From positions 253,975 to 317,974 of the forward strand of contig NZ_LMJA01000031.1 of the NCBI RefSeq assembly GCF_001428895.1: 64,000 bases of DNA. The letters run 5' to 3'. Under the pieces are notes generated by a model, which searched no databases, was not told the origin of the DNA, and saw only the letters and a program-made list of their open reading frames with translations. The stretch is from Mycobacterium sp. Root265. Its GTDB lineage: Bacteria > Actinomycetota > Actinomycetes > Mycobacteriales > Mycobacteriaceae. The position numbers and the translations under genes are program-made. Each line of letters begins with the position of its first letter. Position 1 is the first letter of the stretch. Shown here one piece after another: positions 30,255 to 56,543 of the stretch.

Positions 30255-30258
<4 letters not shown>
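29662..30258 (-). CDS. grpE: Nucleotide exchange factor GrpE
   Basis: A 198-residue protein. An acidic, disordered N-terminus (about 1-50) is followed by a long coiled-coil helix ([27 protein letters not shown], about 50-85) and the beta-wing ([37 protein letters not shown]). It releases ADP from DnaK. GTG start overlaps the dnaK stop by four bases (GTGA), giving tight translational coupling. Confidence 0.96.
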
Positions 30259-32114
<1,856 letters not shown>

Positions 32115-43486: not shown

Positions 43487-44986
43487 TCATCGACCCCGCG
43501 CGTGGAACTCCGCGACGAGCCCTTCGGCGCTGCGCACCGCCGCCCGGCACGCCCTGGTGGTGAACGGATCGTTGAGCGGGTGATCGGCGCGACGGCGCCA
43601 TCGCTGGGTGGCGGCGAACGCCGCGCGGGGGCCATCGTTGGGAGCGTCGGGACCCAGGCCCAGCCTGCTGGCCGCGTCGGTTCCCGAGCCACCGATCAGG
43701 CGCCGCAGCGAGGACATCTCGTCCTCGGTCAAGGTGGTTGGCCGGGAACGCAATTGGCTCAACAGGCGCAGCTCCTCGAAGGCGTGCGCATCGGCGAGCA
43801 GCGGTTCGATGTCGGCGAGGATCTGCCGGCTCGCGAAGATCGGATTGATCTGGACGAATCGACGCAACGACAGCAGCGCGGTATGCGCCTTGAGCAGGTC
43901 GGAGCGCTGCGCGAACTGCTGGTCGATGACGTCGCGCAGCGCGATCAGGCCGCTGCGTTCCAGCAGTTCGTCGGCCAGCGCCACCGAATCGCTGATCCCG
44001 GCGCTGAGCACGGCGATGGAGATCCGGATACCGAACATGCCGAACCGCTCCAGCAGGGCGGCGCGGGTCGCGGCGTCGACCGGCAGCGAGGCATCCTCCC
44101 GCACGAAGCGGTCCACGCTCAGCATCGCCTTCGCCAGCTCCGCGGACGGCACCCCGGCCAACTTCTCCAGCGCGACGAACTCGCTCTGGCGCAGTGTGCG
44201 CGCGGTCAACGCGAGCAGCCCTGACACCGGCACCACGGCCTGGCAGATGCCGGTCTTGTCCATCTCGGCGGTGAACCGGGTAGCGACATCACGGGCCGAG
44301 AGCATGGCGTCGATGCGACCGGCACCGATCTCGTCGGCGCGGGAGGCCACCCCGATCACGCCGAGCGCACCCGAGGACCCACCGACGAGTTCGCCGATCT
44401 GTTTGAGCAGCGCGATGTCGGCGGCATTGAGGGTGCGCAGCAGGAAGACCACCGCGTCCACCCGCGGCACCCCGTCCTCGGGGACCAGCAGCCGCAACGT
44501 CCGCTGCGACACGTCGCGCGACAGCGACGAGGTGCCCGGGGTGTCGATGATCGTGGCGTCGGTCAGTTCGGCGGCCGGCCATTCCACGTCGAGATCCTCG
44601 ACGTCCTCGGGGTCGAGTCCGGTGAAGCTGAACGTCAGGCTGCGTTGCTGGTCGCCGGCGGCGCGGGCGATCGGAACGTTGGACCGTCGGCCGTCACGGT
44701 GATTGGCCGTCACCTTCGGGGACGGCCCGTGCCGGAACCGGGTGACGATGCGGGTGGCCTCGGTGGCGTCGGTCGGGGCGATGTCCTCGCCGACCAGTGC
44801 GTTGACGAGCGTGGATTTGCCGGCTTTCAGTGTGCCGGCCAGCGCGATGCGCATCGGCTGGTTCAGCCGGCGCTCGATCCGTTCGAGTTCGGCGTGCACA
44901 TCGGGGCGCTGCCGGTACACGGGGTCGGCCCGGTAGGCCGCAATCGTGCCACCGAGAATTGCGCGCACGTTATCGCTGGTGCTCAT
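43487..44986 (-). CDS. iniC: Dynamin-like GTPase IniC
   Basis: A 499-residue bacterial dynamin-like protein, close to the length I recall for M. tuberculosis IniC. The P-loop reads GTLKAGKSTLVNALVG (about residues 50-65), switch I includes TDATEATRIVTRF, and G3 is DTPG in DATIIDTPGTSSLS. The C-terminal half is helical (SLRRFVQINPIFASRQILADIEPLLADAHAFEELRLL) and predicted to form the bundle/stalk. The iniBAC operon is induced by cell-wall inhibitors and its dynamins are implicated in membrane remodelling. Separated from iniA by 75 bases that contain two direct repeats. Confidence 0.9.
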   Translation of the reverse strand: MSTSDNVRAILGGTIAAYRADPVYRQRPDVHAELERIERRLNQPMRIALAGTLKAGKSTLVNALVGEDIAPTDATEATRIVTRFRHGPSPKVTANHRDGRRSNVPIARAAGDQQRSLTFSFTGLDPEDVEDLDVEWPAAELTDATIIDTPGTSSLSRDVSQRTLRLLVPEDGVPRVDAVVFLLRTLNAADIALLKQIGELVGGSSGALGVIGVASRADEIGAGRIDAMLSARDVATRFTAEMDKTGICQAVVPVSGLLALTARTLRQSEFVALEKLAGVPSAELAKAMLSVDRFVREDASLPVDAATRAALLERFGMFGIRISIAVLSAGISDSVALADELLERSGLIALRDVIDQQFAQRSDLLKAHTALLSLRRFVQINPIFASRQILADIEPLLADAHAFEELRLLSQLRSRPTTLTEDEMSSLRRLIGGSGTDAASRLGLGPDAPNDGPRAAFAATQRWRRRADHPLNDPFTTRACRAAVRSAEGLVAEFHARGR

Positions 44987-45061: not shown

Positions 45062-46882
45062 TCAACGGGGGGCTACCAGCTTGTCGACGTTGTCGACGAC
45101 CTGCTTGAGGATGTTGAGCTGACGTTCCAGCTCCTTGATGCGGGTGTTGCGCTCGTCCTCTTCCATCTTGGCCGACGCGAGAGTGGCCTGCAGCGACTCG
45201 TTGAGTGAGCGGCTGGTCTGGTTGGCGATACCGCGGTAATGGTCGCGCAGTTGCCGTTGCACGGCGCGCAACCGGTCCCGGGATTCTTTGTTCACGATGA
45301 AGGAGATGTCGTCGACGAATCGGCGCGCATTGGTCTTCGCCTCGTTGCGTACCCGCAGCATCCGGTTCTCCATGTCCTCCTTGTAGGCCTTGCGGCCCAA
45401 CAGGAATCCCGCCCCCAGCGACAACGGATTGAACATGCCCAGCCCGGCGAACGAGGTGAGCATGCCGAACATCAGGATGCCGCCGTAGGAGCCGCGCATG
45501 CCGGTGACCACCTTGTGGCCGGCCTTGATCGGTTTGGCCTCCAGCCGGGCCACCGACTTGAACTCCCCGAAACCGGCGCCCATGTCGCGGGCACTGACCT
45601 CGGGCAGTTCGACGACGTCGAGGCCCGCCTCGGTGAACAACCGGGCGACCTCGGCGGCCAGCGCCTCGGCACGCTGGTAGGCCCAGACGAAGTTGTCCCC
45701 GACCGCGGTGGCCACGGCGGTCTCCAGTTCGGTGCCGATCTCGGCCCAGTGCTGAGTGGGATCGCAGCCGTCGATCACCTTCTCGGTGTGGGCGGTGATA
45801 TGGCGGAAGCGGTTGCGCAGATCGTGATCGACATCGGCGGTCAGGTCGGCGATGCCGTCGTTGAGGGTCTGCTGCCACAGCGCGGTCTGCTGCAACGCTT
45901 CCTGGGCTTCTTCTTTGCGCCGCTCAAGGTCCGCGGTGAGCCGTTCGCGGGCAGCCGGATCATTGAGCACGGACAGCTCACTGTGCACGGTGAGCGTCAG
46001 ATGTTCTGCGGCGGCGCGGATCTCACCGAGCACATGGTCACGGATCCGATCGTTCTCCCGTGACATCACCTTTTCGGACAGGAATTTGATGATGGCCGGG
46101 AAGTTGGATTCCTCGTTGAGCTCTTTGTCATTGAGGGTGACGGCGTGACTGCGCAGCACCGAACTGGCTGGGATCACCGGGGTGCTCACGGCGGCGTGGC
46201 GCAGGTGGGCCTCGTTCGCGGCGACGACGTCCCGCCAATGCGGGTACAGGTCGGTCTTGGTGGCGACAATTGTTGCGACCGGGCAGATTTCGACGGCCTG
46301 CCGGATGAAGGTCATTTCCGGTTCGGTGAATTCCTGGCTGGTGTCGCTGATCATCAGCATGGCATCGGCGTCGGGCAGCAGACCCAGCGTCGCCGACAGG
46401 TGGGGCTGGCCGTGCCCGCCGACACCGGGGGTGTCCACGAACGCCAGGCCGTTCTTGAGCATCTGGCTGGGCACGCCGACCTCGACCCGGAGCACCTCGC
46501 GCCCCTCGGCGGCCGGTGCCCGGCGCAGATCGTTCTTCAGCTCCGACATGTCGATGTCGACGAATTCGGCATCGTCGCCCTCGGGGGTCACCACCACCAG
46601 GCGTGCGGTCGGCGTCTCGGCGTAGAAGACCACGGTGGCCAGCACGGTGCTCTCGTCGTCCCCGACCCGGGCCACCGGGATGTTCAGCAGCGAGTTGAGC
46701 AGTTGGCTCTTGCCCTGCTTGAGCTGGCCGGCGATGACCACCCGGATCTGCGGATCGGTGATCCGCTCCTTGGCGATGCGCAGCCGTTCCGCCAGGTCGG
46801 CGCGTTCGTACAGACCGGCGATCTTGGTGGTGTGGTCGATGAGTTCGACGATCACCTTGACCGGGCGTGCGGATTGCGTCAT
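45062..46882 (-). CDS. iniA: Dynamin-like GTPase IniA
   Basis: A 606-residue bacterial dynamin. The P-loop GQLKQGKSQLLNSLLN lies near residues 52-67, switch I DDESTVLATVVFY, G3 DTPG in LAFVDTPGVGGHG and G4 TKTD in IVATKTDLYPHW. A long helical stalk follows. Near residue 460-490 a hydrophobic hairpin (GSYGGILMFGMLTSFAGLGMFNPLSLGAGFLLG) fits the membrane-inserting tip of IniA. The C-terminus is coiled (IKELERQLNILKQVVDNVDKLV). IniA of M. smegmatis has been shown structurally to be a membrane-fission dynamin. RBS AGGAAGGGG. Confidence 0.93.
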   Translation of the reverse strand: MTQSARPVKVIVELIDHTTKIAGLYERADLAERLRIAKERITDPQIRVVIAGQLKQGKSQLLNSLLNIPVARVGDDESTVLATVVFYAETPTARLVVVTPEGDDAEFVDIDMSELKNDLRRAPAAEGREVLRVEVGVPSQMLKNGLAFVDTPGVGGHGQPHLSATLGLLPDADAMLMISDTSQEFTEPEMTFIRQAVEICPVATIVATKTDLYPHWRDVVAANEAHLRHAAVSTPVIPASSVLRSHAVTLNDKELNEESNFPAIIKFLSEKVMSRENDRIRDHVLGEIRAAAEHLTLTVHSELSVLNDPAARERLTADLERRKEEAQEALQQTALWQQTLNDGIADLTADVDHDLRNRFRHITAHTEKVIDGCDPTQHWAEIGTELETAVATAVGDNFVWAYQRAEALAAEVARLFTEAGLDVVELPEVSARDMGAGFGEFKSVARLEAKPIKAGHKVVTGMRGSYGGILMFGMLTSFAGLGMFNPLSLGAGFLLGRKAYKEDMENRMLRVRNEAKTNARRFVDDISFIVNKESRDRLRAVQRQLRDHYRGIANQTSRSLNESLQATLASAKMEEDERNTRIKELERQLNILKQVVDNVDKLVAPR

Positions 46883-47003: not shown

Positions 47004-47969
47004 TCAGAACAGTCCGGCGTCGACGTTCGTCTCGATGGTGTTGTCCACGTCGAGAGTGTTGGAGTTGTCCACCGAGTTGTCGATATCGGTGTCCACCACC
47101 GTGGTGGTCACGCTGTCGTCATCGCTGGCGTCCAGGGTGCCGGAGTTGTCGATGATGGTGATGCCGCCACCGTTGCCGGCGTCGCCGCCGCTGGAGTGAC
47201 CGCCCCCAATCAGGCCGCCGCCGGCCACCGAGCCGCCACCGTTGCCGCCGCTGGTGTCGACGTCGTTGAGCACCGGGCCCTCGTTGTCGGAGATGATGTC
47301 GTCCCCGGCGATCTGGGAGTTGTCCTCCACCTCGTTCTCGTCGCCGATGATGACCGGCGAGTGGTTGCCGGTCTCGACGTCGACCTTGGTGTTGTCCGTG
47401 ACGTTGTCGTCGCCGACCACATTGCTATCACCGGTGACGTTCTCGTCGCCGACCACGATGTCCTCGCCGGTGATGTTCTCGTCGCCGACCACGTTGCCGT
47501 TGCCGGTGGTGACGGTGCCCGCGTTGTCACCGTCGACCACGACGCCGCCGTCGGTGGCGGTGTTGGAGGTCTTGTTGCCGAAGGTGATGTCACCGAAGCC
47601 GAGGTTGAAGCCGCCGACCTGCGAGTTGGCACCGGAGCTCTGGTCGGGGCTCAGGAACTCCGCGTTGGTCTTGTTGTGGCTGGCGATGTCGGTCTCCGGG
47701 GCGAAGGTCCGCTGCGGGGCGTACATCGGGGCGAACGAGTTGGCCAGGCTGTGGTGATCGGCGACCGCGCGCTGCAGGCCGAGCACCGGGTCCCCGCCAC
47801 CGAGGGCGACGCCGGCCGGGGCTGCGGTGGCCGCGACGGCCGACAGCTGGGCGGCGGTGACGTTCGGCAGGCCGGCGTCACGCAGGGCCTGCTCCGGATC
47901 GCTCACGAAGGCACCGGCCAGGTCGGGGCTACGGAAGAGGTCGAGGATGTAGTCGATGATGGTGGTCAT
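47004..47969 (-). CDS. iniB: IniB-like protein
   Basis: A 321-residue protein. The N-terminal ~55 residues (MTTIIDYILDLFRSPDLAGAF..., DPEQALRDAGLPNVTAAQL) form the IniB domain. The rest is Gly/Asn/Asp/Thr-rich. Three near-identical 12-residue repeats (VVGDENITGED type) occupy about residues 159-194, like a short beta-roll. Gly-rich (240-270) and Asp/Asn/Thr-rich (275-318) blocks follow. It is shorter than the 479 residues I recall for M. tuberculosis IniB. No signal peptide is obvious. IniB is the first and most strongly induced product of the operon in M. tuberculosis. Its biochemical role is unknown. Confidence 0.88.
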   Translation of the reverse strand: MTTIIDYILDLFRSPDLAGAFVSDPEQALRDAGLPNVTAAQLSAVAATAAPAGVALGGGDPVLGLQRAVADHHSLANSFAPMYAPQRTFAPETDIASHNKTNAEFLSPDQSSGANSQVGGFNLGFGDITFGNKTSNTATDGGVVVDGDNAGTVTTGNGNVVGDENITGEDIVVGDENVTGDSNVVGDDNVTDNTKVDVETGNHSPVIIGDENEVEDNSQIAGDDIISDNEGPVLNDVDTSGGNGGGSVAGGGLIGGGHSSGGDAGNGGGITIIDNSGTLDASDDDSVTTTVVDTDIDNSVDNSNTLDVDNTIETNVDAGLF

Positions 47970-48113: not shown

Positions 48114-48133
48114 CCCATTAGGGGATTAGGGGG
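48114..48133 (-). promoter_or_regulatory. iniB: CCCATTAGGGG motif plus partial copy upstream of iniB
   Basis: CCCATTAGGGG lies at 48114-48124 with ATTAGGGGG directly after (48125-48133), about 145-165 bases before the iniB start. A nearby symmetric element CACCCC-N6-GGGGTG occupies 48085-48102. The same CCCRTTAGGGG core is repeated upstream of the other IniB-domain gene, so a shared activator (IniR) is suggested. Confidence 0.55.
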
Positions 48134-48148
48134 TCGTGGGGGCACACG

Positions 48149-48190
48149 AAAAAGCCCGCCCTGCCGCGGGGAATCGCAGCTGGGCGGGCT
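48149..48190 (-). terminator. Rho-independent terminator after the Rv0340-like gene
   Basis: On the minus strand, AGCCCGCCC (48190-48182) pairs with GGGCGGGCT (48161-48153), followed by a T5 tract (48153-48149). This is the only canonical stem-plus-U-tract terminator in the window. It starts 15 bases past the stop and isolates the upstream gene from iniB, so iniB needs its own promoter. Confidence 0.85.
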
Positions 48191-48204: not shown

Positions 48205-48702
48205 TCAGTCGAAGAGGTCGAAGCCGGCCGCGTCCGGTGCCGCGCTCCACTCGTGATCGAGGATGTTGTCGTGCAGCGGGAGATCCTCGACCACGGTGTT
48301 CACCGGGACATCGGCGTACTCATCGTCGAGGCCCTGGACGACCCCGACACCGTCATCGGTGATGCTCGGCACCTCGTGGACGGGTAGGTTGTCCAGCCCG
48401 TCGGCGATCACCGGCACCGAATCGTCGATACCGAAGGCATCGAAGGCCGCGGTGGCGGCGCCGCTGGTCCAGACGTTGGAATCGACGGCCGGAAGGGTGC
48501 CGGCCCAGCTGGTGGCATCGACACCGGGTACCGCCGAGGACAGCGATTCGGCGACGACCGGGATCAACTGGTCGACGTCGGCACTCGTCACATCAGACAG
48601 GTGGGCGTCGGCGATGGCCGCGGCGGGATCCGCGGCGTAGCGTGCCGCAGCGTCGGAGTCCCGCACCAGCGACATCACGAAGTCGAGCAGTGAGTTGGCC
48701 AT
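48205..48702 (-). CDS. Second IniB N-domain protein (Rv0340-like)
   Basis: A 165-residue acidic protein. Residues 1-50 (MANSLLDFVMSLVRDSDAAARYAADPAAAIADAHLSDVTSADVDQL) align with the IniB N-terminal domain: an amphipathic helix, the DP-x-x-A-x-x-A/D pattern and the VTxAxxxQL turn. The remainder is Val/Asp/Leu-rich without the Gly repeats of IniB. Position and size fit Rv0340, which precedes iniB in M. tuberculosis. It is followed by a strong terminator and preceded by an array of CCCGTTAGGGG motifs. The function is unknown. Confidence 0.82.
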   Translation of the reverse strand: MANSLLDFVMSLVRDSDAAARYAADPAAAIADAHLSDVTSADVDQLIPVVAESLSSAVPGVDATSWAGTLPAVDSNVWTSGAATAAFDAFGIDDSVPVIADGLDNLPVHEVPSITDDGVGVVQGLDDEYADVPVNTVVEDLPLHDNILDHEWSAAPDAAGFDLFD

Positions 48703-48811: not shown

Positions 48812-48855
48812 CCCGTTAGGGGATCGCCCGTTAGGGGTTCCGACACGTTAGGGGG
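48812..48855. promoter_or_regulatory. Array of three CCCGTTAGGGG motifs between the divergent ini arms
   Basis: CCCGTTAGGGG occurs at 48812-48822 and 48827-48837, and a variant ACGTTAGGGGG at 48845-48855 (offsets 15 and 18). A degenerate copy (CCGTTAAGG) overlaps the plus-strand -10 (TAAGGT, 48884-48889). Copies are in the same orientation, as expected for an activator such as a LuxR/MalT protein. They lie about 110-150 bases before the Rv0340-like start and 58-100 bases before the Hsp70-like start. Confidence 0.65.
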
Positions 48856-48912: not shown

Positions 48913-50706
48913 ATGAGCGACTCGCTCGGATTGTCCGTCGGGATGACCAATCTGGTGGCGGCCCGCGAGGGTCGGCCGCCGGTCACACGCCGGTCGGTGC
49001 TGACCCTGTTCAGCGACCGGGCGCCCGAGGTCGGCGTCCCCAGCGAGAACCCCAACCTGGGCCAACCCGGCCTGGTGCTCGGCGGTTTTGTGGACCGCGT
49101 CGGTGACCCGGTACCGCTGGTGGCCTCCGACGGGTCCTCACACCGCGGCGATCAGGTACTCGCCGAAGCTCTCGACGCCATGACCCACACGGTCGGCGGC
49201 GGCAACCCCATCACCATTGCGCTGCCCGCGCACTGGGCGCCCTCGGTGGTGGCTGCCCTGCAGACCGCCCTGCGCAACAAGCCCGGACTGGCCGCCGCGG
49301 CGGTGGTGCCGGATTCGGTCGCCGCGCTGGCCGGTCTGCGTTCCAGCCTCCCGCCCCAGGGTGTCGTCGCCCTCGTCGACCTCGGTGGCAGCGGCACCAG
49401 CGTGACGCTGGCCGACGCCGGCGCTCAGCTCGCCCCGATCGGCGCGACCCTGCGGTACGCCGATTTCTCCGGTGAGCAGATCGACCAGGCGCTGCTCAAC
49501 CACGTCATCGCCGGTATCGCCGATGCCGGCGACGCCGACCCGGCAGGCACCGCCGCCGTCGGGTCACTGGGACGGCTGCGCGACGAATGCCGCCGGGCCA
49601 AGGAACGCCTGTCCGCCGACACCGCCACCGTGGTGCCCGCCGAACTTCCCGGCTACAGCTCCGATGTGCGGGTCACCCGCGCCGAGCTCGACCAGCTCAT
49701 CGATGCGCCGCTCGGCGGGCTGTTGGCCGGTGTCGAAGAACTGTTGCAGCAGAGCGGCATTGCGCCCGGACGGTTGAGCGCGGTCGCGACCGTCGGTGGC
49801 GGTGCCGCCATTCCGCTTGTCACGCAACGGCTCTCCGAACGCCTGCAGGTTCCGGTCGTCACCGCCCCGCAGGCCGCGACCCTCGCGGCGGCCGGCGCGG
49901 TCCTGGTTGCCGATCTCGCCTCCGAGGCCGGCGCGGCGACGGGCCTGGCCCCGGCGGCGGTCCCGGATCCCGAAGCCACCGGAATGGCCCCGACGATGGG
50001 CTGGGCCGGTGGTGCAGCCGCCGCCGACGCGGAGGCCCCCGGCGGCCTGGCGTGGTCCCAGGATGAGGACGCACCGACCGGTGAACCGGTCCCCTACCAG
50101 GGTCCTGATTACGAAACCGGTTACGCCCCAACCCCTACCGATGCCCGCCCGCCGATTGCGTTCACCCCCGGCGAGGACGATTACCCCGCCGAGCCCGAAC
50201 CGCTGCCCTGGTACAAGCGCCCGCCACTGCTGTTCGGCGCCGCCGCCGCGGCCGCCCTGCTGGCCGTGGGTGGCCTCGCCGTCACCCTGACCGGGACCAG
50301 CAGCCCGAGTGGTCCGGTCACCGAGACCGCGACGAGTTTCTCCACCGAGCCCGGGCAGCCCGGCGAGCCGGTGGTGACCGAACCCCAGACCGTGACCGTC
50401 ACCGGTGACGACGGTCTGGTGACGACCTCCGAGATTCCGCCGCCACCGCCGCCGTCGACCACGACGACGACCACCACCCCGTCGACCACGTCGTCCACCA
50501 CGACGACGACCACCACCACCACCACGACCACCACCACGACGACGACCACGACGACTCCGCCCACCACGACGACGACGAAGCCGGTCACCACGACCACTGC
50601 ACCGCCCGTCACGACGACCACCGTGGTGCCGCCCCCGCAGCCCGAACCCGAGCCGGAGCCCATACCGGAGCCCGAGCCCGCGGAGCCCGCCGCCGCGGCC
50701 GGATAG
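48913..50706 (+). CDS. Hsp70-like ATPase-domain protein with transmembrane helix and poly-Thr extracytoplasmic stalk
   Basis: A 597-residue protein. The ATG at 48913 follows GAAGGAGG, which decides the start. Residues 5-335 are an actin/Hsp70-fold domain: a degenerate phosphate-1 loop (LGLSVGMTNLVAA), phosphate-2 VALVDLGGSGTSVTL (152-166) and the adenosine motif VATVGGGAAIPLVTQRL (291-307). The Hsp70 substrate-binding domain is missing. After an acidic Pro-rich linker, a helix at 438-460 (PLLFGAAAAAALLAVGGLAVTL) leads to a Pro and Thr stalk with a threonine run at 516-549 and a PEPEPEP end. It is five bases upstream of iniR and divergent from the IniB-domain gene. I do not recall this gene at the M. 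tuberculosis locus. Confidence 0.85.
   Translation: MSDSLGLSVGMTNLVAAREGRPPVTRRSVLTLFSDRAPEVGVPSENPNLGQPGLVLGGFVDRVGDPVPLVASDGSSHRGDQVLAEALDAMTHTVGGGNPITIALPAHWAPSVVAALQTALRNKPGLAAAAVVPDSVAALAGLRSSLPPQGVVALVDLGGSGTSVTLADAGAQLAPIGATLRYADFSGEQIDQALLNHVIAGIADAGDADPAGTAAVGSLGRLRDECRRAKERLSADTATVVPAELPGYSSDVRVTRAELDQLIDAPLGGLLAGVEELLQQSGIAPGRLSAVATVGGGAAIPLVTQRLSERLQVPVVTAPQAATLAAAGAVLVADLASEAGAATGLAPAAVPDPEATGMAPTMGWAGGAAAADAEAPGGLAWSQDEDAPTGEPVPYQGPDYETGYAPTPTDARPPIAFTPGEDDYPAEPEPLPWYKRPPLLFGAAAAAALLAVGGLAVTLTGTSSPSGPVTETATSFSTEPGQPGEPVVTEPQTVTVTGDDGLVTTSEIPPPPPPSTTTTTTTPSTTSSTTTTTTTTTTTTTTTTTTTTPPTTTTTKPVTTTTAPPVTTTTVVPPPQPEPEPEPIPEPEPAEPAAAAG
50458..50620 (+). repeat. ACG/ACC trinucleotide tract encoding the threonine stalk
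   Basis: A run of Thr codons (ACC and ACG mixed) with a few Pro and Ser codons. It lies in frame within the Hsp70-like gene. Such tracts are prone to length variation by slippage and to assembly error. Confidence 0.9.
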
Positions 50707-50711
50707 TCATC

Positions 50712-53144
50712 GTGGGCTCGGACTCCGGTGCGATCGCGGCGTTGATCGCGGCTCCCTCCGAGCCGGTCAAGGTGCTGATCTCCGGGGGTATCGGCGCCGG
50801 TAAGACGACACTGCTCAGCACGGTACGCACCGCCTTGCGGGAGGCCGGCGTGCCGGTGCTGAGCCGGCCCGCGGACGACAGCCCCGGCGCCCTGATCGTC
50901 GATGACGCCCATCTGCTCGGCGACGACGAACTCGCGTTGCTGTGCGAGCGGGCCGCCGAGCCGGGGCGCACCGTCGTCGTGGCCGCCGAACCACTGGCCC
51001 ACCACGGCGCCCTGCGTGCACTGACGCTGGCGCTGACCCGGGAGAATCCCGCGGTGATACTGGGTGCCCGCACGCCCGCCGAGCTGGCCCATGTCGAGCA
51101 GCTGGACGCCGTGCTGGCAGCGACGGCGGGGATACCGTTCCTGCTCGCGGCCGCGGAGGGCGCCGACGCACCGGCCGACGCTGCCCGGTTCGCGCTCGTG
51201 GAACGATTGCGCCGCCTCGATCAACCGGTGCTCGACACCCTGCTGCTGTGCTCACTGGATCCGCGTCTCGGGCCCGACGATATCGCCGCCGCGTTGCGGG
51301 TGGAAGCCGTTGCGGCCCAAGCACTTGTGGATCGCGCCCGGGCCAGTGGGCTGCTGGAGCCGGGCCGGCACCGAGCGTTCCGGCGCACCCTGCATCAGGC
51401 GGTGGCCGAGATCGTCGGCACCGCGCGCCACCATGACACCGAGATTGCGCTGCTGCAGTCGCAGCTCGACATGACCACGCTGTCAGCCGATCTCGCGCTC
51501 GGACTGGCAGAACACGGACTGCGGGACGGCCGACTGGCCGAGGCGTTGACCTCGTTGGCGGCGCGGCACCGCGACGAACCCGCGCGGGCGGCGCGGCTGT
51601 ACCGCGCGGCATCCGATGCCGGCTCGACCCAGCTGAGCACCGAACTCGGCGATGCGCTGGCTCTGACCGGTGACTGTGCAACCGCCGCGCGGCTGGCCGA
51701 CGACCTACTGGGCTCCGCCGACCCCGCGCAGCGTGCCGCGGCGGTGCGGATCGCGGCGAGTGTGTCCATGCATGACGGCAGCGCCACCGCGGCAGCCGAC
51801 CTGTTCCGCTGGCTCGGTCCGTACCCGGATGCGTTCATCGGTTCGGCGGGCGTTGTGGTTTCGGTCGCCACCGGTGACATCGCCACCGCCCGGGCCGCAC
51901 TCGATGTCGAGGACAGCGGTCCGCCGACTTCCACCGCGCGCGCGGCCCGCAGCCTCGCCGAAGGACTGCTCTACACCTTGGATCGGCCGTTCCCGACCGC
52001 CATCGGCCGGCTGAGTCAGGCGATCACCGCGGAGTGGTCGTCCACCTGGGTCGCGCCGGACAGCCCCGCCGCCCTGGTCACCCTGGCGGCGCTGCACGGC
52101 GGCGATCCGGTTCGCGCCCGCAGCATCATCGGGCGCGCCGCCGGTGCCGAACCCGGGCACGGCGAGGTCTTCAGCGCTCACCGGCACCGGCTGCTGCTGG
52201 GCTGGACCCGGATGCTGGATGGCCAGCTCAACCGGGCCGCCGCCGATGCCGCCGCGGTCGACCCGGCGGCCCTGCACCGCCGCGACGCGCTCTGGTCGGC
52301 AGCGCTGCGCACCGCGATCGCGCGGCGCGCCGGTGACACCGGCGCCATGCAACAGCACTGGTATGCCGCCATGGAGGTGCTGGCCGAGTATTCGATGGAC
52401 CTGTTCTCGCTGCTGCCGTTGGGCGAACTGTGGGTCGCGGCCGCCCGGCTGCGCCTGGTGGACCGGCTGCAACATCACCTCGATGACGCGCTGGACCTGC
52501 TGGACACGCTGGGCCGGCCGCCGCTGTGGTCGGTGCCGCTGCACTGGTCCGGGGTGCACGCCGGGATCCTGGCCAATTCACCGGACGCGGTCGCCCCGCA
52601 CGGTCAGGCCCTCACCGCGGCGGCCGCCGACAGCACCTATGCGCGGGCGCTGGCCACCGCCGGGCGGGCGTGGCTGCGGGTGCTCGCCAACCAGGTCGAC
52701 GTCGACGACGTGACGCTGGCCGCCCGCGCGCTCGCACAGTTCGGGCTGACCTGGGATGCGACCCGGCTGGCCAGTCAGGCCGCGTTGCAGACACCTGATC
52801 CCCGGGTGTCCGGGGTGATGCTGCAACTCGCGCGGGACCTGAAGTCCACCACCCCCGACGCCCCGGACGGTCCGGATGCGCGCGAGACCTTCGCCGACGC
52901 CGCGCGGCCGCCGGGAGCCGTCCCGCGTGCCGACGCGGCGCCGTCATCGCGACTGTCGGACCGCGAACGCGAGGTCGCCGAATTGCTGTTGCTCGGTATG
53001 CCCTACCGCGATATCGGTAGCCAACTTTTCATCTCGGCCAAGACCGTCGAACATCACGTCGCACGCATCCGGCGCCGCCTCGGAGCGGAGTCCCGCTCGG
53101 AGATGTTGTCGATGTTGCGCGCACTTCTGGGCACTCCGGCCTGA
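50712..53144 (+). CDS. iniR: LuxR/MalT-type transcriptional activator IniR (Rv0339c-like)
   Basis: An 810-residue STAND/LAL-type regulator. Walker A GGIGAGKTTLL is at residues 25-35, and Walker B LIVDDAHLL around 64-72. A ~600-residue TPR-like helical solenoid follows. The LuxR HTH occupies the last 65 residues (LSDREREVAELLLLGMPYRDIGSQLFISAKTVEHHVARIRRRLG). In related mycobacteria Rv0339c (IniR) controls iniBAC induction. GTG start five bases after the Hsp70-like stop, with no separate promoter, so the two proteins are made together. Confidence 0.9.
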   Translation: MGSDSGAIAALIAAPSEPVKVLISGGIGAGKTTLLSTVRTALREAGVPVLSRPADDSPGALIVDDAHLLGDDELALLCERAAEPGRTVVVAAEPLAHHGALRALTLALTRENPAVILGARTPAELAHVEQLDAVLAATAGIPFLLAAAEGADAPADAARFALVERLRRLDQPVLDTLLLCSLDPRLGPDDIAAALRVEAVAAQALVDRARASGLLEPGRHRAFRRTLHQAVAEIVGTARHHDTEIALLQSQLDMTTLSADLALGLAEHGLRDGRLAEALTSLAARHRDEPARAARLYRAASDAGSTQLSTELGDALALTGDCATAARLADDLLGSADPAQRAAAVRIAASVSMHDGSATAAADLFRWLGPYPDAFIGSAGVVVSVATGDIATARAALDVEDSGPPTSTARAARSLAEGLLYTLDRPFPTAIGRLSQAITAEWSSTWVAPDSPAALVTLAALHGGDPVRARSIIGRAAGAEPGHGEVFSAHRHRLLLGWTRMLDGQLNRAAADAAAVDPAALHRRDALWSAALRTAIARRAGDTGAMQQHWYAAMEVLAEYSMDLFSLLPLGELWVAAARLRLVDRLQHHLDDALDLLDTLGRPPLWSVPLHWSGVHAGILANSPDAVAPHGQALTAAAADSTYARALATAGRAWLRVLANQVDVDDVTLAARALAQFGLTWDATRLASQAALQTPDPRVSGVMLQLARDLKSTTPDAPDGPDARETFADAARPPGAVPRADAAPSSRLSDREREVAELLLLGMPYRDIGSQLFISAKTVEHHVARIRRRLGAESRSEMLSMLRALLGTPA

Positions 53145-53309: not shown

Positions 53310-56300
53310 GTGCAGCACACGCTCGAAGTGAGCAGGTTGGTCCTCGCAATGCTGATGACCGCCGTCGTCTTGGTGTTCGCCGCCAAGCGCGTGCTGTGGC
53401 TTACGAAGCTGATCAGCTCGGGCCAGAAAGTGGGCGACGAGCGCGGCCGGAAGAACGATCTGGTCAAGCGCTTCCTGAATCAGAACAAGGAAGTCTTCGC
53501 CCAGTCGAAGCTCCTGAAATGGTCGATCCCCGGTATCGCGCACTTCTTCACCATGTGGGGCTTCTTCGTCCTCGGCTCGGTGTACGTCGAGGCCTTCGGC
53601 GTGCTGTTCGACCCCGAGTTCCACATCCCGTTCGTCGGCCGCTGGGCCGTCCTGGGATTCCTGCAGGACTTCTTCGCCCTCATGGTGCTGCTCGGCATCC
53701 TGACCTTCGCGATCATCCGTCTGACCCGCGAGCCCAAGAAGATCGGCCGTGACTCCCGCTTCTACGGCTCGCACACCGGCGGCGCGTGGGAGATCCTCTT
53801 CATGATCTTCCTGGTCATCGCCACCTACGTGCTGTTCCGCGGTGCCGCGGTCAACGTGCTCGGCGAGGAGTTCCCCTACCAGTCCGGCGCCTTCCTCTCC
53901 GATGGCATGGCCTGGCTGCTGGCCCCGCTCGGCGCGACCGCGAACATGTGGATCGAGACCCTGGCCCTGATGGGTCACATCGGCGTCATGCTGGTGTTCC
54001 TGCTGATCGTGCTGCACTCCAAGCACCTGCACATCGGCCTGGCCCCCATCAACGTCACCTTCAAGCGCCTGCCCGACGGCCTGGGCCCGCTGCTGCCCAT
54101 GGAGCACAAGGGCGAGCCGATCGACTTCGACGATCCCGCCGAGGACGCGGTGTTCGGCCGCGGCAAGATCGAGGACTTCAGCTGGAAGGGCTACCTCGAC
54201 TTCACCACCTGCACCGAGTGCGGCCGCTGCCAGTCGCAGTGCCCGGCCTGGAACACCGGCAAGCCGCTGTCCCCCAAGCTCGTGATCATGAACCTGCGCG
54301 ACCACATGTTCGCGAAGGCGCCGTACTTCCTCGACGGCAAGGAGAGCCCGCTCGAGAACACCCCCGAGGGTGGTCTGGGCGAGGAGATCCGCGGCGAGAA
54401 GCACGACGAGAAGCATTCGCACGACCACGTGCCCGAGTCCGGCTTCGAGCGCATCCCGGCCGATTCCCCGCTGCAGGCGACCCGGCCGCTGGTCGGCACC
54501 CTTGAGCAGGGCGGCGTCATCGATCCCGACGTGCTGTGGTCCTGCACCAACTGCGGTGCCTGCGTGGAGCAGTGCCCGGTCGATATCGAGCACATCGACC
54601 ACATCGTGGACATGCGCCGCTACCAGGTCATGGTCGAATCCGAGTTCCCCGGCGAGCTCGGCGTGCTGTTCAAGAACCTGGAGAACAAGGGCAACCCCTG
54701 GGGCCAGAACGCCAAGGACCGCACCAACTGGATCGACGAGGTCGACTTCGACGTCCCGGTCTACGGCGAGGACGTGGACTCGTTCGACGGTTTCGAGTAC
54801 CTGTTCTGGGTCGGCTGCGCCGGCGCCTACGAGGACCGCGCCAAGAAGACCACCAAGGCGGTCGCCGAACTGCTCGCCACCGCGGGCGTGAAGTACCTGG
54901 TGCTGGGCACCGGAGAGACCTGCACCGGCGACTCCGCCCGTCGCGCCGGTAACGAGTTCCTGTTCCAGCAGCTCGCGGCGCAGAACGTCGAGACCATCAA
55001 CGAGCTGTTCGAGGGCGTCGAAGCCGTCGACCGCAAGGTCGTCGTCACCTGCCCGCACTGCTACAACACGATCAACCGCGAATACCCGCAGCTGGGCAGC
55101 AACTACACCGTGGTGCACCACACCCAGCTGCTGAACCGCCTGGTCCGCGACAAGCGACTCATCCCGGTGACCTCGGTCGACCAGGAAGTCACCTACCACG
55201 ACCCCTGCTTCCTGGGCCGGCACAACAAGGAGTACGAGGCCCCGCGTGAGCTGGTCGGCGCTGCCGGCGCGAAGCTCACCGAGATGCCCCGCCACGCGGA
55301 CCGCGGCCTGTGCTGTGGTGCCGGTGGTGCTCGGATGTGGATGGAAGAGCACATCGGTAAGCGCGTCAACACCGAGCGCACCGAGGAAGCCATCGACACC
55401 GGCGCCTCCGCGATCGCGACCGGTTGCCCGTTCTGCCGCGTGATGATCACCGACGGTGTCGACGACGTCGCCGCCGCCCGGGACATCGAGAAGGTCGAAG
55501 TGCTCGACGTCGCGCAGCTGCTGTTGAACTCGCTGGACACCAGCCTGTACACGCTGCCCGAAAAGGGCACCGCCGCAGCGGCTTCCGCAGAACGCGCCGA
55601 GGCCCGTGCCACGCTGGAGGCCGAGCAGGAAGCGGCCGCTGTCGCGGCTGCTCCCGCCGTCGAAGACGAGGTCGAGGAGGCCGACAAGCCGGCCGCTGCG
55701 GCCGCCGCAGCTCCGGTCACCGGACTCGGATTGGCCGGGGGCGCCAAGCGTCCGGGCGCCAAGAAGGCCGCCGCGCCGGCCGCCGAGGCCGCACCCGCTG
55801 CCGAGGCAGCCGCCCCCGCGGCACCGGCCAAGGGGCTCGGCTTGGCCGGGGGCGCCAAGCGTCCCGGTGCCAAGAAGGCCGCTCCTGCCGCTGCTGCCCC
55901 GGCTGCCGAGGCCGCACCCGCCGCTGAGGCCGCTGAGGCCGCTGCCCCCGCGGCACCGGTCAAGGGGCTCGGATTGGCCGGCGGCGCCAAGCGTCCGGGC
56001 GCCAAGAAGGCCGCCGCGCCCGCTGCACCTGCTGCTGCGGCCGCTCCGGCTGCCGAAGCCCCCGCCGAGGCCGCACCTGCCACGCCCGAACCGGAGGTCA
56101 AGGGACTCGGGATCGCCTCGGGCGCACGCCGTCCGGGTGCCAAGAAGGCTGCTCCGGCAGCGGCCGCGCCGGCCGCTCCGAAGGCCGAGGAGGCCCCGGT
56201 CGCCGAGGCGCCTGCGGCCGAGCCCGCTCAGCCCGCGGAACCGGCCAAGCCAGAGCCGCCGGTCGTGGGTCTGGGTATTGCCGCCGGCGCACGCCGTCCG

Positions 56301-56543
56301 GGTGCGAAGAAGGCAGCGCCCACGGCGCCGGCTGCTGAGCCGACTCCCGCGGCGGAGCCCGCCGCCGAACCTGTCGCCGAGGCCGAGCCCGAGGTGGTCG
56401 ACGAAGCACCTGAAGCACCCGAGGCACCGGCCGCCGAGCCGTCGTCGAACGGTTCCAGCGGTGCGGACCGGGTCGTCGGCGACGAAGCACCGGTCAAGGG
56501 TCTCGGTATCGCCAAGGGCACCCGCCGACCGGGCAAGCGCTGA
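53310..56543 (+). CDS. etfD: EtfD-like membrane FeS oxidoreductase (Rv0338c-like) with extended repeat tail
   Basis: A 1077-residue protein. Five or six N-terminal helices (about 8-240) form the haem/quinone-side membrane domain. Two 4Fe-4S motifs follow, CTECGRCQSQCP (about 301-312) and CTNCGACVEQCP (about 412-423). Two CCG-type cysteine-rich domains (VTCPHCYNTI; DRGLCCGAGGARMW) follow. EtfD passes electrons from EtfBA, and thus from acyl-CoA dehydrogenases, to the respiratory quinone. After about residue 760 there is an Ala/Pro/Glu-rich tail with six lysine-rich repeats. I recall 882 residues for Rv0338c, so the tail is the length difference. GTG start with GGGGAGG. Confidence 0.93.
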   Translation: MQHTLEVSRLVLAMLMTAVVLVFAAKRVLWLTKLISSGQKVGDERGRKNDLVKRFLNQNKEVFAQSKLLKWSIPGIAHFFTMWGFFVLGSVYVEAFGVLFDPEFHIPFVGRWAVLGFLQDFFALMVLLGILTFAIIRLTREPKKIGRDSRFYGSHTGGAWEILFMIFLVIATYVLFRGAAVNVLGEEFPYQSGAFLSDGMAWLLAPLGATANMWIETLALMGHIGVMLVFLLIVLHSKHLHIGLAPINVTFKRLPDGLGPLLPMEHKGEPIDFDDPAEDAVFGRGKIEDFSWKGYLDFTTCTECGRCQSQCPAWNTGKPLSPKLVIMNLRDHMFAKAPYFLDGKESPLENTPEGGLGEEIRGEKHDEKHSHDHVPESGFERIPADSPLQATRPLVGTLEQGGVIDPDVLWSCTNCGACVEQCPVDIEHIDHIVDMRRYQVMVESEFPGELGVLFKNLENKGNPWGQNAKDRTNWIDEVDFDVPVYGEDVDSFDGFEYLFWVGCAGAYEDRAKKTTKAVAELLATAGVKYLVLGTGETCTGDSARRAGNEFLFQQLAAQNVETINELFEGVEAVDRKVVVTCPHCYNTINREYPQLGSNYTVVHHTQLLNRLVRDKRLIPVTSVDQEVTYHDPCFLGRHNKEYEAPRELVGAAGAKLTEMPRHADRGLCCGAGGARMWMEEHIGKRVNTERTEEAIDTGASAIATGCPFCRVMITDGVDDVAAARDIEKVEVLDVAQLLLNSLDTSLYTLPEKGTAAAASAERAEARATLEAEQEAAAVAAAPAVEDEVEEADKPAAAAAAAPVTGLGLAGGAKRPGAKKAAAPAAEAAPAAEAAAPAAPAKGLGLAGGAKRPGAKKAAPAAAAPAAEAAPAAEAAEAAAPAAPVKGLGLAGGAKRPGAKKAAAPAAPAAAAAPAAEAPAEAAPATPEPEVKGLGIASGARRPGAKKAAPAAAAPAAPKAEEAPVAEAPAAEPAQPAEPAKPEPPVVGLGIAAGARRPGAKKAAPTAPAAEPTPAAEPAAEPVAEAEPEVVDEAPEAPEAPAAEPSSNGSSGADRVVGDEAPVKGLGIAKGTRRPGKR
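55722..56543 (+). repeat. etfD: Six repeats of GLGLAGGAKRPGAKKAA in the EtfD tail
   Basis: Units begin near 55722, 55836, 55965, 56103, 56268 and 56499. The first three read GLGLAGGAKRPGAKKAA, the next two are GLGIA(S/A)GARRPGAKKAA, and the last is GLGIAKGTRRPGKR and ends the protein. Spacers are Ala/Pro/Glu-rich and vary from about 20 to 60 residues. The alternation of basic repeats with acidic spacers suggests a flexible, polyvalent binding tail. Confidence 0.9.

Follow-up and report, generated by a model that had tools for sequence, protein, structure and literature searches.

The window analysed here, a stretch of 64,000 nucleotides from Mycobacterium sp. Root265, holds a complete mycobacterial iniBAC locus, in which iniC-iniA-iniB-iniB* diverge from an Hsp70-like gene (hsp) and iniR. 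The pairing of the Hsp70-like gene with iniR is old, regular, and non-random, and the gene shares a putative operator with iniB: direct repeats with the consensus CRTTAGGGGAT, new to this study, precede hsp-iniR, iniB, and most second copies of hsp. With a probability of about 0.45, the best explanation is that the Hsp70-type nucleotide-binding domain (NBD) acts as a signalling module, an ATP-responsive co-regulator that would restrain IniR as MalK restrains MalT.

The locus is made up of the same iniB*, iniB, iniA, iniC, and iniR as the IniR/iniBAC system of M. marinum and M. tuberculosis (PMC5760070). On the plus strand, iniR (50712..53144) encodes a STAND-type ATPase with a LuxR-type DNA-binding domain (NF038181, scoring 1270 bits where the cut-off is 750), its domain matches being GerE and P-loop/STAND NTPase. 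On the minus strand lie iniB* (48205..48702), of the Rv0340 family and with an IniB N-terminal domain (NF038176, 164 bits), and iniB (47004..47969), with the IniB N-terminal domain (NF038175, 67 bits) and, in its C-terminal part, repeats of the VVGDENVTGDSNVVGDDN type. A terminator-like inverted repeat (48153-48190; 16 nt with a 6-nt loop) separates the two. They are followed on the same strand by iniA (45062..46882) and iniC (43487..44986), both recognized as dynamin-like GTPases by PF00350 and by their place in the locus. Downstream of iniR on the plus strand is a gene for an Fe-S oxidoreductase (53310..56543), taken as a neighbour and not claimed as a member of the system, and past it an aminotransferase gene. 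At its C-terminus, the oxidoreductase has a long tail rich in Ala and Pro in which GLGLAGGAKRPGAKK-like units recur.

The Hsp70-like gene (48913..50706, plus strand) opens with an ATG preceded by AGAAGGAGGT and encodes 597 amino acids, comprising the NBD (residues ~1-345), a linker, a membrane helix (~438-457), and a Thr/Pro-rich tail of ~140 residues. Its stop codon ends at 50706, and iniR starts five bases on, at 50712, as had been noted in an earlier, sequence-only reading of the locus. That reading had recognized an actin/Hsp70 fold from the motifs DLGGSGTS and VGGGAA, which are found at residues 156-163 and 294-299, and had seen no substrate-binding domain, and we agree on both counts. 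Pfam's HSP70 profile (PF00012) matches the protein with E=4.9e-18 over profile positions 108-375 of 599 only, and a profile built from 70 relatives matches DnaK with E=1.7e-43 over DnaK residues 1-349, i.e., its nucleotide-binding domain. A substrate-binding domain or lid is not matched by either comparison (the one ends at 375/599, the other at DnaK residue ~349), and homology is confined to the NBD. The one hydrophobic helix, likewise anticipated, is predicted to begin at ~438, right behind WYKRPP, and the tail beyond it is 39% Thr and 21% Pro and contains the expected PEPEPEP at the C-terminus. The threonine run, put earlier at about 34 residues, is shorter: the longest unbroken run is 20 (529-548), within a 53-residue stretch (514-566) that holds 38 Thr. 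The genome also encodes DnaK proper (30255-32114) and one closer paralogue of the window protein (G000:C28:440778-441962, minus strand; locus L004), 58% identical over the first 400 residues, which has its own Thr-rich tail and adjoins a YkuD L,D-transpeptidase-like gene. Among the best 80 of 307 named loci, those nearest to the window's belong to Mycolicibacterium frederiksbergense and other fast growers like it.

An alignment of 23 sequences from the genus and 34 from other genera with DnaK bears on what the domain might do with a nucleotide. Residues are numbered as in Hsc70, where we take D10, K71, E175, D199, and T204 to have catalytic roles. The equivalents of D199 (23/23 in the genus, 33/34 in other genera), K271 (23/23, 29/34), S275 (23/23, 32/34), G338 (all 57), and G339 (23/23, 33/34) are kept, and that of E175 is Asp in 23/23 sequences of the genus and Glu in 28/34 of the others. 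Lost are the equivalents of D10 (Ser in 23/23 in the genus; Asp in 1/34 elsewhere), T204 (Thr in 0/23 and 3/34), R342 (57/57), and D366 (55/57). Lys is found at the K71 column in 0/57, a column whose alignment is uncertain because an Arg (R62) lies two positions off in 56/57 rows. This near-invariant Arg may replace the Lys, and for that reason the protein might still hydrolyze ATP. From its sequence, the domain probably binds ATP, with hydrolysis probably poor or absent. Since adenosine-contact residues are kept and the equivalents of D10, K71, and T204 are lost, it resembles a switch that binds ATP more than a functional chaperone, and the replacement of catalytic residues makes doubtful the ATP-driven gate for IniR that had been proposed before.

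The pairing was surveyed in 80 iniR loci of the same genus, fetched from 89 iniR-positive genomes among 128 searched, and in 40 loci from the rest of the family, picked from 92 hits so that each of the 17 other genera with a hit was represented. In 58 of the 78 evaluable same-genus loci (two of the 80 were left out, their upstream part being too short) and in 40/40 loci of other genera, the gene immediately upstream of iniR, on the same strand, is the Hsp70-like one. The gap between the two genes is -4 to +18 nt in 49/58 and 27/40 pairs, respectively; we take the remaining gaps, mostly large negative ones, to result from over-long ORF calls. A divergent iniA accompanies 69 of the 80 same-genus loci and 36 of the 40 others. 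Extra copies of the Hsp70-like gene occur around the locus in the genus: 21 on the minus strand beyond iniC, 11 on the plus strand beyond iniC, and 11 downstream of iniR (11/80 loci). Fusion of the two genes was also considered, and no ORF was found that matched both proteins.

Presence of the two genes is also linked. Among 201 genomes of the family (kinship not corrected for), a hit to the Hsp70-like protein was found in 97/102 with IniR versus 9/99 without (co-occurrence thresholds E<=1e-60 and 1e-20, the latter defining an Hsp70-like hit). Five family genomes have IniR without a hit at that threshold, and one of them, G011, has a weak match adjoining iniR. In the order outside the family, 25 genomes are iniR-positive; coordinates place the two genes side by side in 12 of these, from three families, and for the other 13 no adjacency appears among the matches listed. 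The sequence-only reading had asked for a survey of iniR neighbourhoods and had named random association as the outcome that would speak against it; the association is non-random. It had also supposed an extended ini system of fast growers, which is too narrow, the arrangement being the same in all 40 loci of other genera. Within the genus, the slow-grower-type locus is the one that differs.

In that type of locus, iniR stands without the Hsp70-like neighbour (20/78 same-genus loci). Among the best 80 of 307 named loci, 72 are evaluable, with the gene upstream of iniR in 64 and iniB* there in 8. Those of the 8 with species names come from M. simulans, M. asiaticum (two), M. szulgai, M. triplex, and M. 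gordonae, which are presumably all slow growers; two others are metagenome assemblies. The gene appears to have been relocated rather than lost, since 11 of the 20 loci carry a plus-strand copy beyond iniC, and the 7 of these copies that are long enough for a tree all fall inside the iniR-adjacent clade (support 0.996 and 0.967). All 21 slow-grower-type genomes searched hold Hsp70-like genes, with at least two strong matches each.

In the same tree, all mycobacterial copies form one clade nested among the iniR-adjacent copies of other genera (support 0.953), and so paralogues elsewhere in mycobacterial genomes appear to be descended from the iniR neighbour. With low support, the tree puts three of the iniR-adjacent copies (L110-L112) alongside the downstream ones. 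One or two Hsp70-like genes of the iniR clade precede Fe-S and aminotransferase genes in three genomes that have no iniR (L234, L235, L236); their persistence after the loss of iniR implies that the protein can have another job. Another group of paralogues directly follows a gene with a DAP_DH_C dehydrogenase domain (L240, L242, L249, and L252, the four scanned with Pfam).

One membrane helix is predicted by hydropathy in 57/58 same-genus and 40/40 other-genus copies adjacent to iniR. Thr, Ser, and Pro together make up more than half of the tail in 57/58 of the former versus 0/40 of the latter, and the Thr-rich tail is therefore a trait of the genus. Of eight relatives in other families, five stop soon after the domain and lack a helix, one has a helix followed by 20 residues, and the remaining two carry long tails. 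What all relatives have in common is the cytosolic domain beside IniR, which argues that the ancestral partner was cytosolic. Of the envelope-anchored protein with a threonine stalk that had been pictured earlier, the anchor thus stands for the family, and the stalk cannot be the functional core, because the tails of other genera differ and five of the eight relatives lack even the helix. The linker motif RPP[VI]xxTP, seen in the window protein and in relatives from other families, was considered as a peptide for docking IniR and was rejected, as the strict pattern occurs in 7/58 same-genus and 0/40 other-genus iniR-adjacent copies.

The repeats that would constitute the ini operator are found in the window at two places, both read on the plus strand. 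Three copies of TTAGGGG, 15 and 17 bases apart, lie in the divergent promoter region between hsp and iniB* (48816..48854), and two copies, 8 bases apart, lie ~150 bp upstream of the start codon of iniB (48118..48132). Across loci, repeats recur ahead of hsp and of iniB with constant orientation. All 58 same-genus copies adjacent to iniR have TTAGGGG between -200 and +60 of the gene, always in the same orientation. Within a 330-base stretch spanning the start of hsp, or that of iniR in loci without hsp, 75/79 same-genus loci have a site, with 163 sites in all against 3.3 expected from mononucleotide shuffling, as do 29/40 loci of other genera, with 48 sites against 1.6 expected by the same measure. 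Spacings of 15, 17, and 18 are common. Twelve regions from other genera have no exact forward site, and 11 of these have sites with one mismatch, mostly ATAGGGG (24 against 3.6 expected).

An exact pair of sites (1-12 bases between) occurs three times in the 6.67-Mb assembly of the window's genome, each time at the ini locus, and the backwards control pattern 0 times. In the set of 128 same-genus genomes, 86/89 with iniR have the pair versus 2/39 without, and the backwards control is found in 29/89 versus 7/39. That the pair tracks iniR could reflect loss of the locus as a whole, and it is for this reason that copies downstream of iniR, copies without iniR, and remote pairs matter as further results. 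Copies of hsp just downstream of iniR have repeats of their own, in reverse orientation, in 8/10 cases, as does one third copy, and in L045, which is one of the two misses, sites precede a split ORF. The iniR-clade copies in the three genomes without iniR have no TTAGGGG within the fetched 16-19 kb, nor was a site found at 18 loci of other paralogues. Of 11 listed remote pairs with the one-base spacing seen at iniB, six were fetched, and all six lie ~140-165 bases before genes encoding the IniB domain. These genes, in six same-genus genomes (L265-L270), stand outside the ini locus and likely point to a wider ini regulon; some of the 11 listed pairs may be pieces of broken ini loci. Sites were found ahead of 0/19 minus-strand copies beyond iniC and 0/11 of the relocated slow-grower-type copies. 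The absence of the neighbour from 20/78 loci, taken together with these relocated copies devoid of the operator, implies that this lineage has lost the coupling of the two genes.

Outside the family, the exact pair was of no use as a marker (14 genomes with the pair versus 22 with the control pattern among 130). Nonetheless, pairs there adjoin hsp-IniR genes in G370, G434, and G439 and lie 1.7 kb upstream of IniR in G423, and when 8 of the 12 adjacent gene pairs from other families were fetched, 8/8 carried one or more TTAGGGG sites a short way ahead of the hsp-like gene and in the same direction. Most simply, the repeats would be the operator of IniR. That IniR reads them fits the single strong IniR ChIP peak reported ahead of iniBAC (PMC5760070). 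The motifs already known at iniBAC differ from TTAGGGG, both those of MtrA (CACGCCG/CACGAGG; PMC2945938) and the palindrome of InbR (PMC4564863), as given in those sources, and the searched parts of the main text of PMC5760070 hold no mention of such a binding motif. Encoding with iniR in a conserved arrangement and a cis-regulatory site in common with iniB would each mark a gene as part of the ini system, and the Hsp70-like gene has both, the site being putative and absent from the relocated copies of slow-grower type.

The gene has been noticed before. One sentence of PMC5760070 (2017) mentions a dnaK-like gene beside iniR in M. smegmatis, placing it downstream of iniR, whereas the constant copy in the loci considered here is upstream; the consulted sections of that paper describe M. 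marinum and M. tuberculosis without an Hsp70-like gene at this place and offer for the dnaK-like gene no function and no survey. In the open-licence literature searched, no survey, function, or operator motif was found for an Hsp70-like gene beside iniR. The window gene's counterpart in M. smegmatis is probably MSMEG_0692, judged from its description and from a locus number between those of MSMEG_0691, termed a putative transcriptional regulator in PMC8088520, and MSMEG_0695, given as IniA in PMC2945938. MSMEG_0692 (Rv0312) is reported as an interactor of FhaA with one membrane helix, ATP binding, and a Pro/Thr-rich composition (PMC11898655), all of which resemble the window protein.

Three better known systems provide points of comparison. 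The window protein has an NBD homologous to that of DnaK/Hsp70 chaperones, but its family differs from them in having no substrate-binding domain, replaced catalytic residues, and a helix with a presumably extracytoplasmic tail. Wsc1-type sensors of wall stress in yeast have a single helix and a Ser/Thr-rich outer stalk; here the likeness is in layout only, as the domains differ throughout and the stalk of the window protein is not conserved beyond the genus. A parallel to the proposed role is MalT-MalK (also MalY and Aes) of E. coli, likewise a MalT-like STAND/LuxR activator together with a membrane-bound ATP-binding protein. There MalK, an ATPase bound to the membrane, keeps MalT from acting, as cited in PMC5760070, where IniR is likened to MalT. 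MalK, however, is the ATPase of an ABC transporter, while the partner in the window has an Hsp70 NBD and would exert its restraint without an evident transporter, none having been seen with the hsp-iniR pair.

In the proposed scheme of restraint, the Hsp70-like protein and IniR are made from one operon that, like iniB* and iniB, adjoins CRTTAGGGGAT repeats. In mycobacteria and their relatives in the family, the single helix would hold the NBD against the cytoplasmic side of the plasma membrane and leave the tail outside the cytoplasm. In its resting nucleotide state, the Hsp70-like protein would dock IniR, as a MalT-like STAND ATPase, and block its activation. Damage to the wall, conveyed by the tail, by trehalose, or by a rise in ATP, would free IniR, and the IniR-controlled promoter would then supply fresh Hsp70-like protein to reset the switch. 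A co-encoded, membrane-held, ATP-binding protein under the operator of the target genes has the look that might be expected of a feedback brake. It is consistent with this scheme that the iniBAC promoter in BCG is reported to follow the level of ATP (PMC6104191). Counting against it, over-expression of IniR on its own is reported to induce iniBAC in M. marinum (PMC5760070); a partner would then be unneeded for activation, though that would fit an inhibitor.

Close behind this explanation, and quite possible, is that the protein is not a regulator but an effector, a membrane-anchored ATP-binding scaffold that works with the IniA/IniC dynamins and IniB at the plasma membrane or where the wall grows. 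The gene would then adjoin iniR because the whole locus is one regulon. The putative operator common to the gene and iniB, copies that cluster round the ini locus, copies that persist without iniR, and the proximity of the paralogue in the window's genome to an L,D-transpeptidase-like gene all speak for an effector. So does the finding that MSMEG_0692, taken as this gene or a neighbouring copy, was cross-linked in M. smegmatis to FhaA, a protein of the growth pole with which it co-purifies, and not to IniR (PMC11898655). The mirror tree (83 of 120 loci; 37 with absent or short proteins were dropped) fails to point to IniR alone, which counts against a co-regulator: in the genus, distances track IniR better (partial r of 0.76 for IniR given IniA versus 0.35 for IniA given IniR), which an effector would not lead one to expect, but in other genera they track IniA at least as well (0.44 versus 0.62). 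Against an effector, the near-overlapping junction is with iniR, not iniA, and the helix-less relatives in other families still adjoin IniR.

A genuine Hsp70-type chaperone, one that folds the STAND protein IniR or keeps it activatable as Hsp70/Hsp90 do for the NLRs of plants and animals, would account for the homology of the NBD and for a conserved pairing with a STAND ATPase. We consider it unlikely, given the unmatched substrate-binding domain, the replaced D10, K71, and T204 equivalents, and the report that IniR is active in species whose form of the locus has no Hsp70-like neighbour (PMC5760070). Slightly less likely again is a passenger, whose old place in the operon would be due to linkage and which would do nothing connected with IniR. 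Its move away from iniR in one lineage and its survival without iniR in three genomes are what a passenger might do, but order and spacing are conserved in three further families as well as in the 17 other genera, the second copies that lie downstream of iniR bear the operator, and the contrast in co-occurrence is strong (97/102 versus 9/99).

For the restraining role favoured above, one can tentatively propose a history, though the odds are somewhat against its being right. A catalytically dead Hsp70 NBD may have been the ancestral nucleotide-sensing negative partner of IniR, the cytosolic pair and the CRTTAGGGGAT operator coming first, in the order. The helix and then the Thr stalk would have been added to give a sensor of wall stress, and slow growers would later have uncoupled the genes.

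Of all responses, iniBAC is the one that ethambutol and isoniazid induce most strongly. Both trehalose and ATP have been put forward as its triggers, and we know of no demonstration that IniR senses either. For the missing sensor of wall damage, or for a brake, the conserved ATP-site protein encoded together with IniR offers a concrete candidate. Work on M. marinum and M. tuberculosis would miss it, because there the gene is not beside iniR. The proposed operator would make the regulon readable from sequence and would add to it iniR itself, the Hsp70-like genes, and remote genes with the IniB domain. An Hsp70 fold that partners a bacterial STAND activator would parallel the control of NLR proteins by Hsp70/Hsp90.
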